NCBI GenBank assembly: GCA_913055635.1
Contig: CAJXLK010000029.1
Span: 1 to 56,999, forward strand
DNA from: an uncultured Bacteroidota bacterium
Lineage (GTDB): Bacteria > Bacteroidota > Bacteroidia > Bacteroidales > UBA12077
Direction: 5' to 3'
Length of the DNA stretch: 56,999 nt
Below are positions 3,611 through 8,009 of this stretch, piece by piece. The stretch's first letter is position 1. Each line of letters begins with the position of its first letter. Made by a program: the position numbers and the translations under genes. The notes under the pieces are model-generated. The model saw only the letters and a program-made list of their open reading frames with translations. It was not told the origin of the DNA and made no database searches.

Positions 3611-4021
3611 CTATTTATGCAACGACAAAGAGCGGATGATCAAACGATCAAAAACCAGCAGGGTAATAATAGCGAGAATGCCAAGGGGTACGATAGGAGC
3701 CGAGAGGTCCAGGGTGATTTTACTGAACAGAAGCTGGAAGATATTGATATAGGGCTGAAGTTCTGTTTGCAGGTTAAACCCCCCGGGCAATAACGGGGCT
3801 CCACTCATATAGCGGTAGAAGAAATAAGCAGCCGGCACTATCACTGCCAGGAGGATGTTCCAGATGTTGCTGCGTTTGTCTTTAAGGTGGGCTAGTCGTT
3901 TTTGCATTTCCACCCCTTGCATCACCCGTTGGGTAAAATCACCGGCGGGCTGATCCAAACCCGTCTGCTGCATCCATTGGCGGGTTTGTTGATCCAGTTT
4001 ATTATGGGCGTGCTGACTCAT
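3611..4021 (-). CDS. Probable anti-sigma factor, two-transmembrane protein
   Basis: A 136-residue protein with a cytoplasmic N-terminal part of about 65 residues, followed by two predicted membrane helices (NIWNILLAVIVPAAYFFYRY and IVPLGILAIITLLVFDRLII). Its ATG overlaps the TGA of the ECF sigma gene in an ATGA arrangement (4021-4018), so translation is probably coupled. Size, topology and position match anti-sigma factors that hold an ECF sigma at the inner membrane. The N-terminal stretch GLDQPAGDFTQRVM resembles anti-sigma-like proteins beside ECF genes in this phylum. No zinc-binding anti-sigma motif (HxxxCxxC) is present. The role is inferred from context. Confidence 0.7.
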   Translation of the reverse strand: MSQHAHNKLDQQTRQWMQQTGLDQPAGDFTQRVMQGVEMQKRLAHLKDKRSNIWNILLAVIVPAAYFFYRYMSGAPLLPGGFNLQTELQPYINIFQLLFSKITLDLSAPIVPLGILAIITLLVFDRLIIRSLSLHK

Positions 4022-4590
4022 AACAGTGAATTGATTTCATGGTTTAAAATATTGCCCAGGTGTTGATGAAGTTTCTGTCTGGCCCGGTAGAGTTTGACTT
4101 TCACATTGGCCTGGGTCAAAAGGGTAACTTCGGCTATTTCAGCAATGGATTGGTCATCCTGATAATACAAGGTGATGATGGTTTGCTCATCATACCCCAG
4201 GCGTTCCAGGGCCTGGCGGATAAAACGGCTGCGATCAGAGGCCTCCAGTTGATCCATTTTCTGATGGGGATCCTCCGGATCAACATGATAATTGTTGTCA
4301 TCTAACGATTGGACTTGCTTTTTATTTTTCCTCAAATGAGAAACGCACAAGTTGTATACAATGCGATAAAGCCAGGTACTGAACCTTGATTCCTTGCGAA
4401 ATCGTTTCAATGAACGAAAAGCCTTGAGAAAAGCATCCTGAGCCACTTCCTCAGCTTCCTCTCGGTTTTTGAGCATCCGGGAAGCCAGGGTATAGACCAT
4501 ATCTTTGTGCCGCTCTACCAATATGGCATAAGACGAATGGTCTCCCTGCAATACACGATCTATATAATATTCATCCTGAATATGCCCCAT
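4018..4590 (-). CDS. ECF-subfamily RNA polymerase sigma factor
   Basis: A 190-residue sigma-70 family protein with only regions 2 and 4, as in RpoE/ECF sigmas. Region 2 runs from YAILVERHKDMVYTLASRML through EAEEVAQDAFLKAFR to FSTWLYRIVYNLCVSHLRK. Region 4 holds ALERLGYDEQTIITLYYQDD and the helix-turn-helix IAEIAEVTLLTQANVKVKLYRAR. It directs RNA polymerase to promoters, probably on release from the membrane protein encoded just downstream with a 4-base overlap. A TGTAACC-N16-CGTCA element 59-86 bases upstream, repeated in front of the divergent gene, suggests that it autoregulates. Confidence 0.95.
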   Translation of the reverse strand: MGHIQDEYYIDRVLQGDHSSYAILVERHKDMVYTLASRMLKNREEAEEVAQDAFLKAFRSLKRFRKESRFSTWLYRIVYNLCVSHLRKNKKQVQSLDDNNYHVDPEDPHQKMDQLEASDRSRFIRQALERLGYDEQTIITLYYQDDQSIAEIAEVTLLTQANVKVKLYRARQKLHQHLGNILNHEINSLL

Positions 4591-4648: not shown

Positions 4649-4676
4649 TGACGCCCTGAACCCGGTACTGGTTACA
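4649..4676 (-). promoter_or_regulatory. ECF-type promoter for the sigma/anti-sigma operon
   Basis: Read on the minus strand: -35 TGTAACC (4676-4670), exactly 16 bases, then -10 CGTCA (4653-4649). The sigma gene ATG is at 4590. The same two boxes with the same spacing stand on the plus strand at 4786-4813. The bipartite AAC/CGTC form is typical of ECF promoters, so positive autoregulation is inferred. Confidence 0.7.
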
Positions 4677-4785
4677 ACCCGTGCCCATTTTTATCTATGC
4701 GGAAAGTCAACTTAAGAAAAAAAAACTTACCAGTCAAGGATGAATCCAACGAAAGGGCTTCAATGAATATTTATTGGTTTCAATC

Positions 4786-4813
4786 TGTAACCGGATACTT
4801 AAAAGGGGCGTCA
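4786..4813 (+). promoter_or_regulatory. ECF-type promoter for the divergent DUF6249-like gene
   Basis: TGTAACC at 4786-4792, 16 bases, CGTCA at 4809-4813, identical in both boxes and spacing to the minus-strand copy before the sigma gene. The ATG of the membrane-protein gene is 40 bases downstream of the -10 box. No third copy of this spaced pair was found by eye in the window. Confidence 0.7.
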
Positions 4814-4852: not shown

Positions 4853-5182
4853 ATGGAAGGAACATTAGTCCCAATCGCACTTTTTGCCATGATATATGGG
4901 ATAGTATATCTTTCAGTCAGGCGAAAAGAAAGGATGGCGCTTATAGAAAGCGGCCAGGACGCCAAAATTTTCAATATGGAGAGCAATGTCAGCCCCAGTC
5001 TGAAATTTGGCCTTTTGCTGATCGGTCTTGCCCTGGGGGCCCTGATCGGCAACATTTTAGAAGAAGCCACTGCCCTTGACAATGAAGTGGCCTACTTTTC
5101 AATGATCCTATTATTTGGAGGAATCGGCCTGCTTATCTACTACTACATTGGCAGGAAAAAAGCCCCGAAAAAAGAACAATGA
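4853..5182 (+). CDS. Small membrane protein, DUF6249-like
   Basis: A 109-residue protein with three hydrophobic segments (about residues 5-22, 50-68 and 80-98) and a basic tail (IGRKKAPKKEQ). A short charged loop after the first segment (RRKERMALIESGQDA) is characteristic of the DUF6249-type proteins often found next to ECF sigma genes in Bacteroidota. Its function is unknown. It is divergent from the ECF sigma operon and carries the same ECF-type promoter, so it is probably a direct target of that sigma factor and may act in sensing or envelope stress. A strong terminator follows at 5327-5365. Confidence 0.75.
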   Translation: MEGTLVPIALFAMIYGIVYLSVRRKERMALIESGQDAKIFNMESNVSPSLKFGLLLIGLALGALIGNILEEATALDNEVAYFSMILLFGGIGLLIYYYIGRKKAPKKEQ

Positions 5183-5326
5183 TGAAAAACACTGCCATTT
5201 TTTAGGCAGACAAGTCCGTATCATTGAATGCAGCATGGGTTTTCATGCCTTGGCAGCAAAGGCCATAATTATTAGAGGTTTTGAGATTCCGGGCAATGGA
5301 AAAGTCACTGAAGCACAGCCCCTCCA

Positions 5327-5365
5327 ACACAAGAAGGCCGTTGATAGCGGCCTTCTTGTGTTTTT
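5327..5365 (+). terminator. Rho-independent terminator after the DUF6249-like gene
   Basis: A perfect 14-bp stem (5327-5340 with 5348-5361) has a 7-base loop TTGATAG and is followed by a T run. The run overlaps the stop codon of the convergent M64 peptidase gene (5364-5366), so the same hairpin may also act on the minus strand, although the T run there is weak. Confidence 0.9.
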
Positions 5366-6638
5366 ACAGTTCATCAAGGTAATACAGGATCATTCGTTCA
5401 ATGGCGCGCTGACAGACCGCGCAGAATGAATCGGCCTGATTGCTTTTCATCTTGCAGTGCATCGAAGGGCTGTATACCCCTTCGGCCACATAACCCCCTC
5501 CTTCAAAGACCCCTGTTTTCGGGTAATACTTCTCGGCTCGGGGGGTCGGCACCGGGGTATGCTCATCTACCATATCCTTCCATTTTGCTTTAAAATTCAC
5601 CAGGGTGGTCAGATTCGGCTCCCAGGGTTCGCGGATGGTATCATAAAATGCATTGTAAGCCACTTCAGAGTTATAGTACTCATCGCCCAGTCCGGCAAAA
5701 CCATGGCCAAATTCATGGACAGCCACCTCCTCGGAATACAGGTGATCGGATGTGGTGGCCGAATAATGGTTGTAAAAGCCGCCACCTCCATATCTGGAAG
5801 TGTTCACCAGAACAAAGATGTGGTCATAGGGAACGTTGGCCGCATAATCCCTGATCTTAACGGTAGCCGTCGTTGTCAGATAGCGGGGCACATCAAAGGT
5901 ATAATAACTGGTATTGAGGGCGGTATTTTTATAAATCTCTTCACCGGGCACATCGGTTCCCGTCTGCTGGGAGACAGCCCGCACGGCGTAAATATTAAAA
6001 TCCTGGCGGTACTGGTCAAAGGGAGCAAGATTGAATATATACCGGGTGATCCGGCCCACATCTTCCTCAAATTTATCCATTTGTACGCTGGTATAACCTT
6101 CAGCGACAAAAGCAATATCCACCGAAGTGGCCGGGGCACCCCCCTGTTGAATCCTGGTGACTTCCGCCTGAGGAGGGTCTTCATCGCGAATAAAATAATC
6201 GTTCGGGTCAACAATTTTTTCCCAAATCACCGGGTGTCCAGGCTCATTTTTGCTGATCTGCACATAAACCGGGTGCATCGGATAGGGAATACGTATGGTA
6301 TGGGGAAAAGCACGCTGCTCACTTTTAGCTTGCCGGGTGGTCTGCCATTCCTCGAACAGGGTGGAAAATCCCCGGCGGTAGAGGACCTTCTCCCTGGCTG
6401 TATCCTTTACCTCTACCCAATAATTGCCATAGCCAAAAGGGCTGATCAGACCAGACCGTGGCCCTGCCCAGGGGGCCTCCTGTTGGAGGCCTCTCAGGTA
6501 AAAAGCTTCCCGGTCAGCCCCTCCGGCCAGCAAAAAATCAATCCGCAAGGCCTGCCCGTTAAAGTGCCCCTGATAATCCACCTGCCCATCGGCCATCGCA
6601 GCCATAAACAACAAGAAAATAACAATCAAATGCTTCAT
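5364..6638 (-). CDS. M64 family (IgA peptidase-like) secreted metallopeptidase
   Basis: A 424-residue zinc peptidase. The N-terminus MKHLIVIFLLFMAAMADGQ is a signal peptide, so the protein is exported. An N-terminal beta-rich domain (about 20-150) precedes the catalytic domain. The zinc motif HEFGH is at residues 308-312, followed by GFAGLGDEYY with the likely third ligand region. Family M64 includes the Clostridium ramosum IgA protease, but most Bacteroidota members have unknown substrates, so IgA cleavage should not be assumed. Near the C-terminus, MHCKMKSNQADSFCAVC holds cysteines that may form disulfides. It is transcribed alone. Its start is divergent from the MscS gene 54 bases away. 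Confidence 0.9.
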   Translation of the reverse strand: MKHLIVIFLLFMAAMADGQVDYQGHFNGQALRIDFLLAGGADREAFYLRGLQQEAPWAGPRSGLISPFGYGNYWVEVKDTAREKVLYRRGFSTLFEEWQTTRQAKSEQRAFPHTIRIPYPMHPVYVQISKNEPGHPVIWEKIVDPNDYFIRDEDPPQAEVTRIQQGGAPATSVDIAFVAEGYTSVQMDKFEEDVGRITRYIFNLAPFDQYRQDFNIYAVRAVSQQTGTDVPGEEIYKNTALNTSYYTFDVPRYLTTTATVKIRDYAANVPYDHIFVLVNTSRYGGGGFYNHYSATTSDHLYSEEVAVHEFGHGFAGLGDEYYNSEVAYNAFYDTIREPWEPNLTTLVNFKAKWKDMVDEHTPVPTPRAEKYYPKTGVFEGGGYVAEGVYSPSMHCKMKSNQADSFCAVCQRAIERMILYYLDEL

Positions 6639-6692
6639 AGTCTCGACAATTTATCCTTATTTTAGCAGAGGTAATTTATAAAAAAATCTCTT

Positions 6693-8009
6693 ATGGGCGA
6701 AAAAATCGTCACAGAGTTAGAAAATCTGCTGCAGCAGGCCGGTTTGAATGAACAATGGAGTCAGCTGATCATGGTCGTGGTCATTGCCCTTGTGGTACTG
6801 TTGATCGCTTATTTTGCGGACTACCTGGCTAAAAATGTGCTGACTTCCACCATTACCCGGATGGTAAGGAAAAGCAAAAACAAATGGGACGATGCCCTGG
6901 TAAACAGGAGGGTGCTGCAACGGGTGTCTCATTTGGCCCCTGCCCTGATCATCTATTTTTCCACCCAGGTATGGCTCGATCCTTTCCCCGAAGTTCAATC
7001 CGTGTTAATCACCGGGGTTCAGATCTACATCATCTTCATCGTTCTGCTCACGGTCGATGCCCTGCTTAGTGCCTTTCATGACATCTACCAGATATTGCCG
7101 ATGGCTCGGGAAAGACCGATAAAGGGATATATTCAGGTCACCAAGATCATCATTCACTCGGTGGGGGGCATCCTGATTTTATCGCTGATCATCGGCAAAT
7201 CGCCCACTGCCATTTTGGCCAGCCTGGGTGCATTGGCAGCCGTGCTTATCTTGGTGTTCAGAGACACCATCCTGGGGTTTGTCTCCAGCATCCAGCTTTC
7301 TGCCAATAAGATGGTCAAACCCGGCGAATGGATTTCGATGCCGGGGCGCGATGCCGACGGCATTGTACTGGAAATAACGGTTAATACAGTCAAGGTGCGC
7401 AACTGGGACAAAACCATTACCACCATTCCAACCCATGCCTTGATCAACGAATCCTTCCAGAACTGGAAAGGCATGCAGGAAAGCATGGGCCGGCGAATTG
7501 CCCGCTCAATCAACATCGATATCAAAAGCATTCGCTTCTGTGACGATCAGATGCTGGAGCAATTCAAAAAATTCAGGCTCATCCGCGACTATATCTGGCA
7601 AAAACAAGAAGAGATAGACCAGTTTAACCGGGAACACGGAATCACCGACGAGGATACGGTCAGCCGCCGACGTTTGACCAACATCGGGGTATTCCGGAAA
7701 TATGTAGAAACCTACCTGGAACAGCACCCCCACATACACCCCAGCAAACAGCCTTACATCATCATGGTGCGCCATCTCCAGCCTACCGAAAGGGGCTTGC
7801 CGGTGCAGATCTATGTCTTTTCCAAACAACAGGAATGGAAATATTACGAACAAGTCCAGGCCGATATCTTCGACCATATCCTGGCGGTGGTCCCCGAGTT
7901 TGGCCTCAGAGTGTTCCAAAACCCCTCGGGCGATGACTTCAGAAGCCTTACCCAGTCATTTGGCCAGCAGGAACAATCCAGCAACGCCCCTGAAAGTTGG
8001 GGCGAATGA
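6693..8009 (+). CDS. MscS-family mechanosensitive channel, YbdG-like
   Basis: A 438-residue membrane protein of the small-conductance mechanosensitive channel superfamily, acting as an osmotic safety valve in the inner membrane. Hydrophobic helices lie near residues 22-45, 75-120 and 150-205. The pore-lining TM3 region reads SPTAILASLGALAAVLILVF, and the beta domain begins after FRDTILGFVSSIQLSANKMVKPGEWI. The long C-terminal part, with an insertion QEEIDQFNREHGITDED, resembles E. coli YbdG (miniconductance channel) more than MscS. The ATG at 6693 is used. The downstream 3' region contains three tandem 38-39 bp repeats. Confidence 0.92.
   Translation: MGEKIVTELENLLQQAGLNEQWSQLIMVVVIALVVLLIAYFADYLAKNVLTSTITRMVRKSKNKWDDALVNRRVLQRVSHLAPALIIYFSTQVWLDPFPEVQSVLITGVQIYIIFIVLLTVDALLSAFHDIYQILPMARERPIKGYIQVTKIIIHSVGGILILSLIIGKSPTAILASLGALAAVLILVFRDTILGFVSSIQLSANKMVKPGEWISMPGRDADGIVLEITVNTVKVRNWDKTITTIPTHALINESFQNWKGMQESMGRRIARSINIDIKSIRFCDDQMLEQFKKFRLIRDYIWQKQEEIDQFNREHGITDEDTVSRRRLTNIGVFRKYVETYLEQHPHIHPSKQPYIIMVRHLQPTERGLPVQIYVFSKQQEWKYYEQVQADIFDHILAVVPEFGLRVFQNPSGDDFRSLTQSFGQQEQSSNAPESWGE

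Follow-up and report, generated by a model that had tools for sequence, protein, structure and literature searches.

An ECF sigma factor gene and a divergent gene for a small membrane protein of the DUF6249 family, found within 56,999 nucleotides of DNA of an uncultured Bacteroidota bacterium (the whole stretch analyzed, referred to as the window), are preceded by two identical sets of promoter boxes, and this pairing is conserved in most relatives with the same gene arrangement. The locus quite probably encodes a self-regulated inner-membrane stress circuit similar to that of sigma-W, the output that stays constant being DUF6249. The promoter and feedback wiring suggested by the sequences is likely, while the role in inner-membrane stress is only somewhat favored. 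Sequence comparison reveals the paired promoters, their conservation and the presence of further genes behind the same boxes.

Promoter boxes in the window and in the source genome

The features of the locus are as follows:

4649..4676 (read 4676-4649), minus strand: TGTAACC-N16-CGTCA, ECF-type boxes facing the sigma/anti-sigma operon (exact match)
4786..4813, plus strand: TGTAACC-N16-CGTCA, ECF-type boxes facing the DUF6249 gene (exact match)
4018..4590, minus strand: ECF sigma factor, 190 aa (Pfam Sigma70_r2, 4.2e-22)
3611..4021, minus strand: probable anti-sigma factor, 136 aa, with a short cytoplasmic N-terminus and two spans (overlaps the sigma gene; FTxxVM motif; RsiW match; structure model)
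4853..5182, plus strand: DUF6249 protein, 109 aa, three predicted membrane helices (PF19762, 70.8 bits versus a cut-off of 33)

The original prediction had placed TGTAACC-N16-CGTCA on both strands, and its coordinates, strands and spacing proved to be exact. It had also reported no further copy, which holds for the window (these two exact sites only) but not for the genome, since a search of the whole 4.08 Mb source assembly revealed a third exact copy in contig C67 (positions 2669-2696); a backwards control pattern had no exact match in the same assembly. When up to two mismatches were permitted, the window contained six matches versus 2.46 expected from shuffles (six or more occurred in 7 of 100 shuffles), and therefore only the two exact sites stand out. 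The nine one-mismatch sites of the source genome lay mostly over longer open frames, with no convincing gene at promoter distance (L011 was equivocal).

The window's sigma gene has 58 nt between the end of the −10 box and its ATG, and the DUF6249 gene has 39 nt. Judged by sequence and conservation, the sigma factor's own operon carries an AAC-type −35 box and a CGT-type −10 box, as expected of ECF group IV.

Within a single genome, some observations speak for a chance coincidence of the two box sets: the 12-base pattern is expected approximately 0.5 times per genome (2 x 4.08 Mb / 4^12), and at up to two mismatches the source genome yielded fewer matches (173) than the backwards control (275). 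The comparative counts given below have already refuted this explanation, which retains practically no probability.

Conservation of the boxes at sigma/DUF6249 loci

Contigs were scanned with the DUF6249 protein, and the best 80 loci of 206 relatives (by title, 75 Bacteroidota, 4 Chlorobiota and 1 Alphaproteobacteria) were combined with loci of the source assembly and of related genomes, giving 101 loci with 100 DUF6249 genes and 89 sigma genes. This set includes the near-duplicates L034/L035, L059/L066 and L091/L092. The sigma protein of L035, the record titled Alphaproteobacteria, is identical to that of the Bacteroidales locus L034, and the layout of the two loci is the same; the L035 record is probably mislabelled. 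Cultured carriers of the locus include Aquimarina algicola (L105), Polaribacter porphyrae (L101) and Algoriphagus zhangzhouensis (L084).

Boxes were scored as TGTAACC/CGTC with at most one mismatch and a spacer of 14-17. They were present upstream of 89 of the 100 DUF6249 genes and 72 of the 89 sigma genes (74 before two intragenic matches, in L059 and L066, were dropped), while among 398 background windows, taken upstream of other long reading frames at the 80 loci, only one contained such a site. The f6 count (53/207) contains regulon members and so provides no control. A stricter pattern, TGTAAC-N16/17-CGTC, was found upstream of 53/81 DUF6249 genes and 49/73 sigma genes; the corresponding averages for shuffled upstreams were 0.04 and 0.0.

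The prediction was to be rejected if close relatives had lost the boxes while retaining the genes, and this comparison turned out in its favor. Among the 72 divergent loci with the genes less than 500 nt apart (nearly all from Bacteroidota), 65 have retained both promoters, six only that of DUF6249 and one neither, so that the DUF6249 promoter is present at 71. In three of the seven exceptions the boxes appear, by eye, to have drifted in a matched manner: in Algoriphagus (L084/L087) the two genes share CATC, and in L072 they share GAAACC. The pair also persists where the genes are 0.55-3.7 kb apart (both promoters kept at 6/7 such divergent loci). It is this retention at a distance, together with the contrast between 65/72 loci and 1/398 background windows, that argues against chance.

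In co-directional or other arrangements of the two genes, boxes were absent at both genes in 8 of 10 cases. On the sigma tree these box-less arrangements are scattered over several branches; the source genome has one of them (contig C51, L032). In 11 cases the retrieved stretch contained a DUF6249 gene but no complete sigma gene; several of these DUF6249 genes are located at contig edges, and 9 of the 11 have kept the boxes.

The co-directional operons with DUF6249 first and the ECF sigma gene second that lack TGTAACC/CGTC are L032, L096, L106, L107, L111, L112, L165 and L167. In four of these (L096, L106, L107 and L111) we noticed, by eye, an upstream TGTTACC.

Spacer and leader lengths

The predicted 16-base spacing is exact at both sites of the window; elsewhere, the spacer is mostly 15 or 16, depending on the lineage. 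Its length is the same at both promoters in 65/72 loci, and in a sister genus five loci have a spacer of 15 at the sigma gene and 16 at DUF6249. Spacer co-evolution is not claimed, because the number of events on the sigma tree was insufficient for an independent-pairs test (median p 1). Loci at which boxes and spacers have drifted jointly are numerous and could aid the decoding of promoter recognition by ECF sigma factors.

In 51 of the 72 sigma genes with boxes, only 8-11 nt separate the end of the −10 box from the ATG; in most relatives, an autoregulated sigma mRNA starting from this promoter would therefore have almost no leader. The genus of the window is an exception (43-58 nt). For DUF6249 the corresponding distance is 35-47 nt in 70/89 genes.

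The sigma factor and the candidate anti-sigma factor

The sigma factor of the window consists only of the sigma2 and sigma4 regions (Pfam r2 at 24-91 and r4_2 at 124-174) joined by a short linker, which is the domain composition of group IV ECF sigma factors. Its best solved relative is SigW (2.1e-24). It passes only the ECF superfamily cut-off of NCBIfam, and we did not file it as SigW because its score with that model (128.9 bits) is below the required 209.

The 136-aa membrane protein encoded by the overlapping gene has no match in Pfam or NCBIfam. The two-span topology of this putative anti-sigma factor is supported by the structure model, with membrane helices at 49-73 and 110-134, and by the relatives; a plain hydropathy cut gives a single span in the window's own copy. 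The gene downstream of the sigma gene was recovered at 84 loci, and its product has two predicted spans in 73 and the motif F-x3-[VILT][ML] in the N-terminal part in 77 of them. The HxxxCxxC zinc motif, which is optional in the class I anti-sigma family, was found in none of the 84 candidates.

A profile built from 44 of these sequences, when compared with solved chains, gave RsiW as the top match, although a weak one covering a 32-residue stretch (residues 48-79, E 0.013). The next matches were unrelated STAS proteins (0.15), and RseA (1.2) appeared amid unrelated chains. The part aligned with RsiW 48-79 is the conserved helix motif PxxFTxxVM (core FTxxVM), a likeness to proteins with the class I anti-sigma domain (ASDI). 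According to the portion of PMC7406223 that describes it, this domain is a three-helix bundle with a fourth helix. In the model of the window's protein only two helices (5-19 and 29-47) precede the first span; the N-terminal part thus appears too short for a four-helix domain, and the protein was not filed as ASDI because the three-helix bundle is missing. We therefore describe it as a putative anti-sigma factor that works like ASDI proteins and is not classed among them. As stated in a passage of PMC7406223, ASDI domains are found beside only 6% of Bacteroidetes ECF genes, and the short two-span protein is a candidate for part of the regulators missing beside these genes.

In a group of longer candidates (160-169 aa; L062, L068, L071, L076, L082, L083, L086 and L090) a helix motif of the FxxxVM type was seen by eye twice in tandem, which looks as though the sigma-binding helix were duplicated.

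The DUF6249 protein

The small membrane protein, predicted to be DUF6249-like with three spans, is a member of PF19762 (70.8 bits, curated cut-off 33), and its structure model contains three helices (mean pLDDT 82, pTM 0.50). Three spans are predicted in 93 of the 100 DUF6249 genes, and residues E26, R27, G34, G90 and L93 are invariant among 61 aligned sequences. No match to solved chains was obtained by sequence or by fold (Foldseek with the model, best E 4.4), and the sole mention of DUF6249 in a full-text literature search was in a paper that, by its title, concerns plant kinases.

The protein may be a feedback regulator or co-sensor acting on the anti-sigma/sigma pair and not a protective effector. 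This is a serious possibility, albeit the less probable one: DUF6249 is the most constant target (71/72 close divergent loci), it is small, membrane-bound and encoded beside the sigma/anti-sigma pair, and in other operons it lies ahead of the sigma gene, while the retention of boxes by nine of the 11 DUF6249 genes for which no complete sigma gene was retrieved (several of the 11 at contig edges) points the other way. We favor a protective function.

L038 contains a tandem pair of DUF6249 genes (5001-5767). In the window, DUF6249 is followed by genes for an M64 peptidase and an MscS-type channel (5364-8009); on visual inspection, G003 (L293) has similar neighbors, and G001 (L294) has the channel.

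Further targets and the width of the regulon

The original prediction regarded sigma factor, anti-sigma factor and DUF6249 protein as a minimal three-protein circuit. This does not hold for the source genome, where a MacB/FtsX permease is a third predicted promoter target: the third exact copy of the boxes lies 20 nt before a gene for a MacB/FtsX-type permease of approximately 810 aa (two FtsX and two MacB_PCD stretches). By eye, no obvious ATPase is encoded in the listed frames adjoining it, part of which were included in a family search. All four well-covered genomes of the window's genus have boxes 19-20 nt before this permease (two exact, one TGTAACT and one TGTAACG), and in a fifth genome, which is 57% complete, no match was found. 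Other permeases of the same type in this genus are mostly devoid of boxes. In the sister genus g2, a different permease (31% identical) is preceded by boxes at 23-31 nt in 10/10 genomes, with at most one mismatch each (full-length genes of at least 64% identity were counted and a fragment in G021 was left unscored). Each genome has some 2 to 40 stretches that match permeases, and boxes occur before one permease per genus.

Downstream of the permease, contig C67 encodes a weakly sigma-like protein (L290:5364-5954; Sigma70_r4_2, E 0.016, below the cut-off).

Across the source family (23 genomes), 43 exact sites with a spacer of 15 or 16 were found versus 15 for the backwards control; 31 of them are situated at the sigma/DUF6249 locus, seven before permeases and five elsewhere. 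A class-wide draw of 119 genomes gave 54 sites (three from the source genome) versus 82 control sites; therefore, there is no excess of boxes where the system is mostly absent. In eight genomes reached via the loci, 10 of 17 sites were at the sigma/DUF6249 locus (control, 15).

These counts bear on the possibility that a different ECF sigma factor of the cell is the main reader of these ECF promoters, and that the local one is just a target within a cascade. According to a section of PMC8103513, many ECF sigma factors share AAC/CGT boxes; in the source genome, at least one paralogous sigma/DUF6249 locus exists and a second sigma-like gene adjoins the permease. Nevertheless, the boxes accompany this sigma type in lineage after lineage, at its own operon, they are absent from 8 of the 10 co-directional or other arrangements, and outside carriers the class-wide draw showed no excess over the control, which makes such a cascade unlikely. 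Reading by the locally encoded sigma factor is the interpretation that we retain.

Other lineages carry other targets. The 19 genomes of the G027 family contained 65 exact sites versus 14 in the control, and the distinct sites were located before DUF6249 (19), pspC (16), sigma (3), sppA (2) and single genes (7), or had no gene (17). The boxes of the 16 distinct pspC genes have a spacer of 15 and lie 20-32 nt from the ATG; in G035, which belongs to a different family, boxes are present 19 nt before pspC. In the source family, those pspC gene starts that the scan reached showed no such promoter (pspC loci on the minus strand were partly scanned). A direct check of 15 sppA genes of the G027 family, picked by their N-terminus and in several cases from closely related genomes, revealed boxes with a spacer of 15 at 83-159 nt upstream in 10 genes, and no site at one mismatch in the other five.

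The sites of the G027 family with no gene were rejected as promoters, because each of the 17 that were checked (16 of the 17 sites plus the near-duplicate L308, with L353 left out) falls, in antisense orientation, within a reading frame 374-1009 codons long; 13 lie in what seems, by eye, to be one signal-peptide protein. Single extra sites (L113, L114, L125/L171, L173, L174, L178, L355 and others) may be chance matches.

The sppA, transporter and pspC-type targets each occur in separate lineages and were never all present in one examined genome; the core is constant and the additions are lineage-specific.

Proposed circuit

We infer that the two sets of boxes are −35/−10 elements read by the locally encoded ECF sigma factor, and that the neighboring two-span membrane protein is its anti-sigma factor, which would keep it at the inner membrane. 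Membrane or envelope stress would free the sigma factor, which would then transcribe its own operon (a positive feedback that would also raise the level of the anti-sigma factor) and, in the opposite direction, DUF6249. In the source genome it would additionally transcribe the MacB/FtsX-type permease gene on another contig, and in relatives it would read pspC and sppA. The output would be a small, sigma-W-like inner-membrane protection regulon, with DUF6249 as a presumably protective, constant member. The textbook logic of ECF systems, as outlined in part of PMC8103513 (AAC/CGT boxes, an anti-sigma neighbor and autoregulation), explains the locus.

There is perhaps an even chance that Bacteroidota possess a widespread counterpart of sigma-W/RsiW with a stripped-down two-span anti-sigma factor, in which DUF6249, a new family in membrane protection or stress sensing, is the core and sometimes the sole output besides the system itself, and which is extended in individual lineages by PspC, SppA or a MacB/FtsX permease. 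A circuit of this kind is already known. We did not find this particular one described in the literature searched, and the group may be catalogued in the ECF reclassification (10.1093/nar/gkaa1229) or in the work on the Dma1 anti-sigma factor (PMC10927553). The analysis provides a predicted recognition sequence and a small putative regulon, and it offers a role for DUF6249 that can be put to the test.

Comparison with known systems

The promoters of Flavobacterium psychrophilum SM6, as presented in a portion of PMC9723704, are likewise from Bacteroidota, have a CGT-type −10 box and include one sigma/anti-sigma operon among their targets; unlike here, these targets include T9SS and Band-7 genes, and DUF6249 is not named in that portion. 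The PSP and Lia systems, as summarized in a section of PMC11237479, share the membrane stress setting, and PspC is a target here in two related families; the present system differs in its control by an ECF sigma factor and in that no PspA was seen among its targets.

With sigma-W/RsiW of Bacillus subtilis the locus shares the combination of an ECF sigma factor and a membrane anti-sigma factor, and the two proteins have their best solved matches in SigW and RsiW (the latter a weak one). The −35 box of sigma-W is TGAAAC, whereas it is TGTAACC here, and in contrast to RsiW the anti-sigma factor is shorter, has two spans and is devoid of HxxxCxxC. The regulon is far smaller, with DUF6249 in place of PspA or flotillins. 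We take YvlC to be a PspC protein and YknZ to be a MacB-type permease. According to passages of PMC3498285, sigma-W controls yvlABCD, sppA-yteJ and yknWXYZ, and part of PMC8144471 describes SppA as removing membrane-embedded peptides and YknWXYZ as guarding against SdpC. The presence of sppA and a yknZ-type transporter among the targets of both systems, here in separate lineages (PMC3498285, PMC8144471, as far as these passages go), and the resemblance of the targets to sppA, yknWXYZ and yvlABCD of sigma-W, suggest that it is the inner membrane that would be protected.
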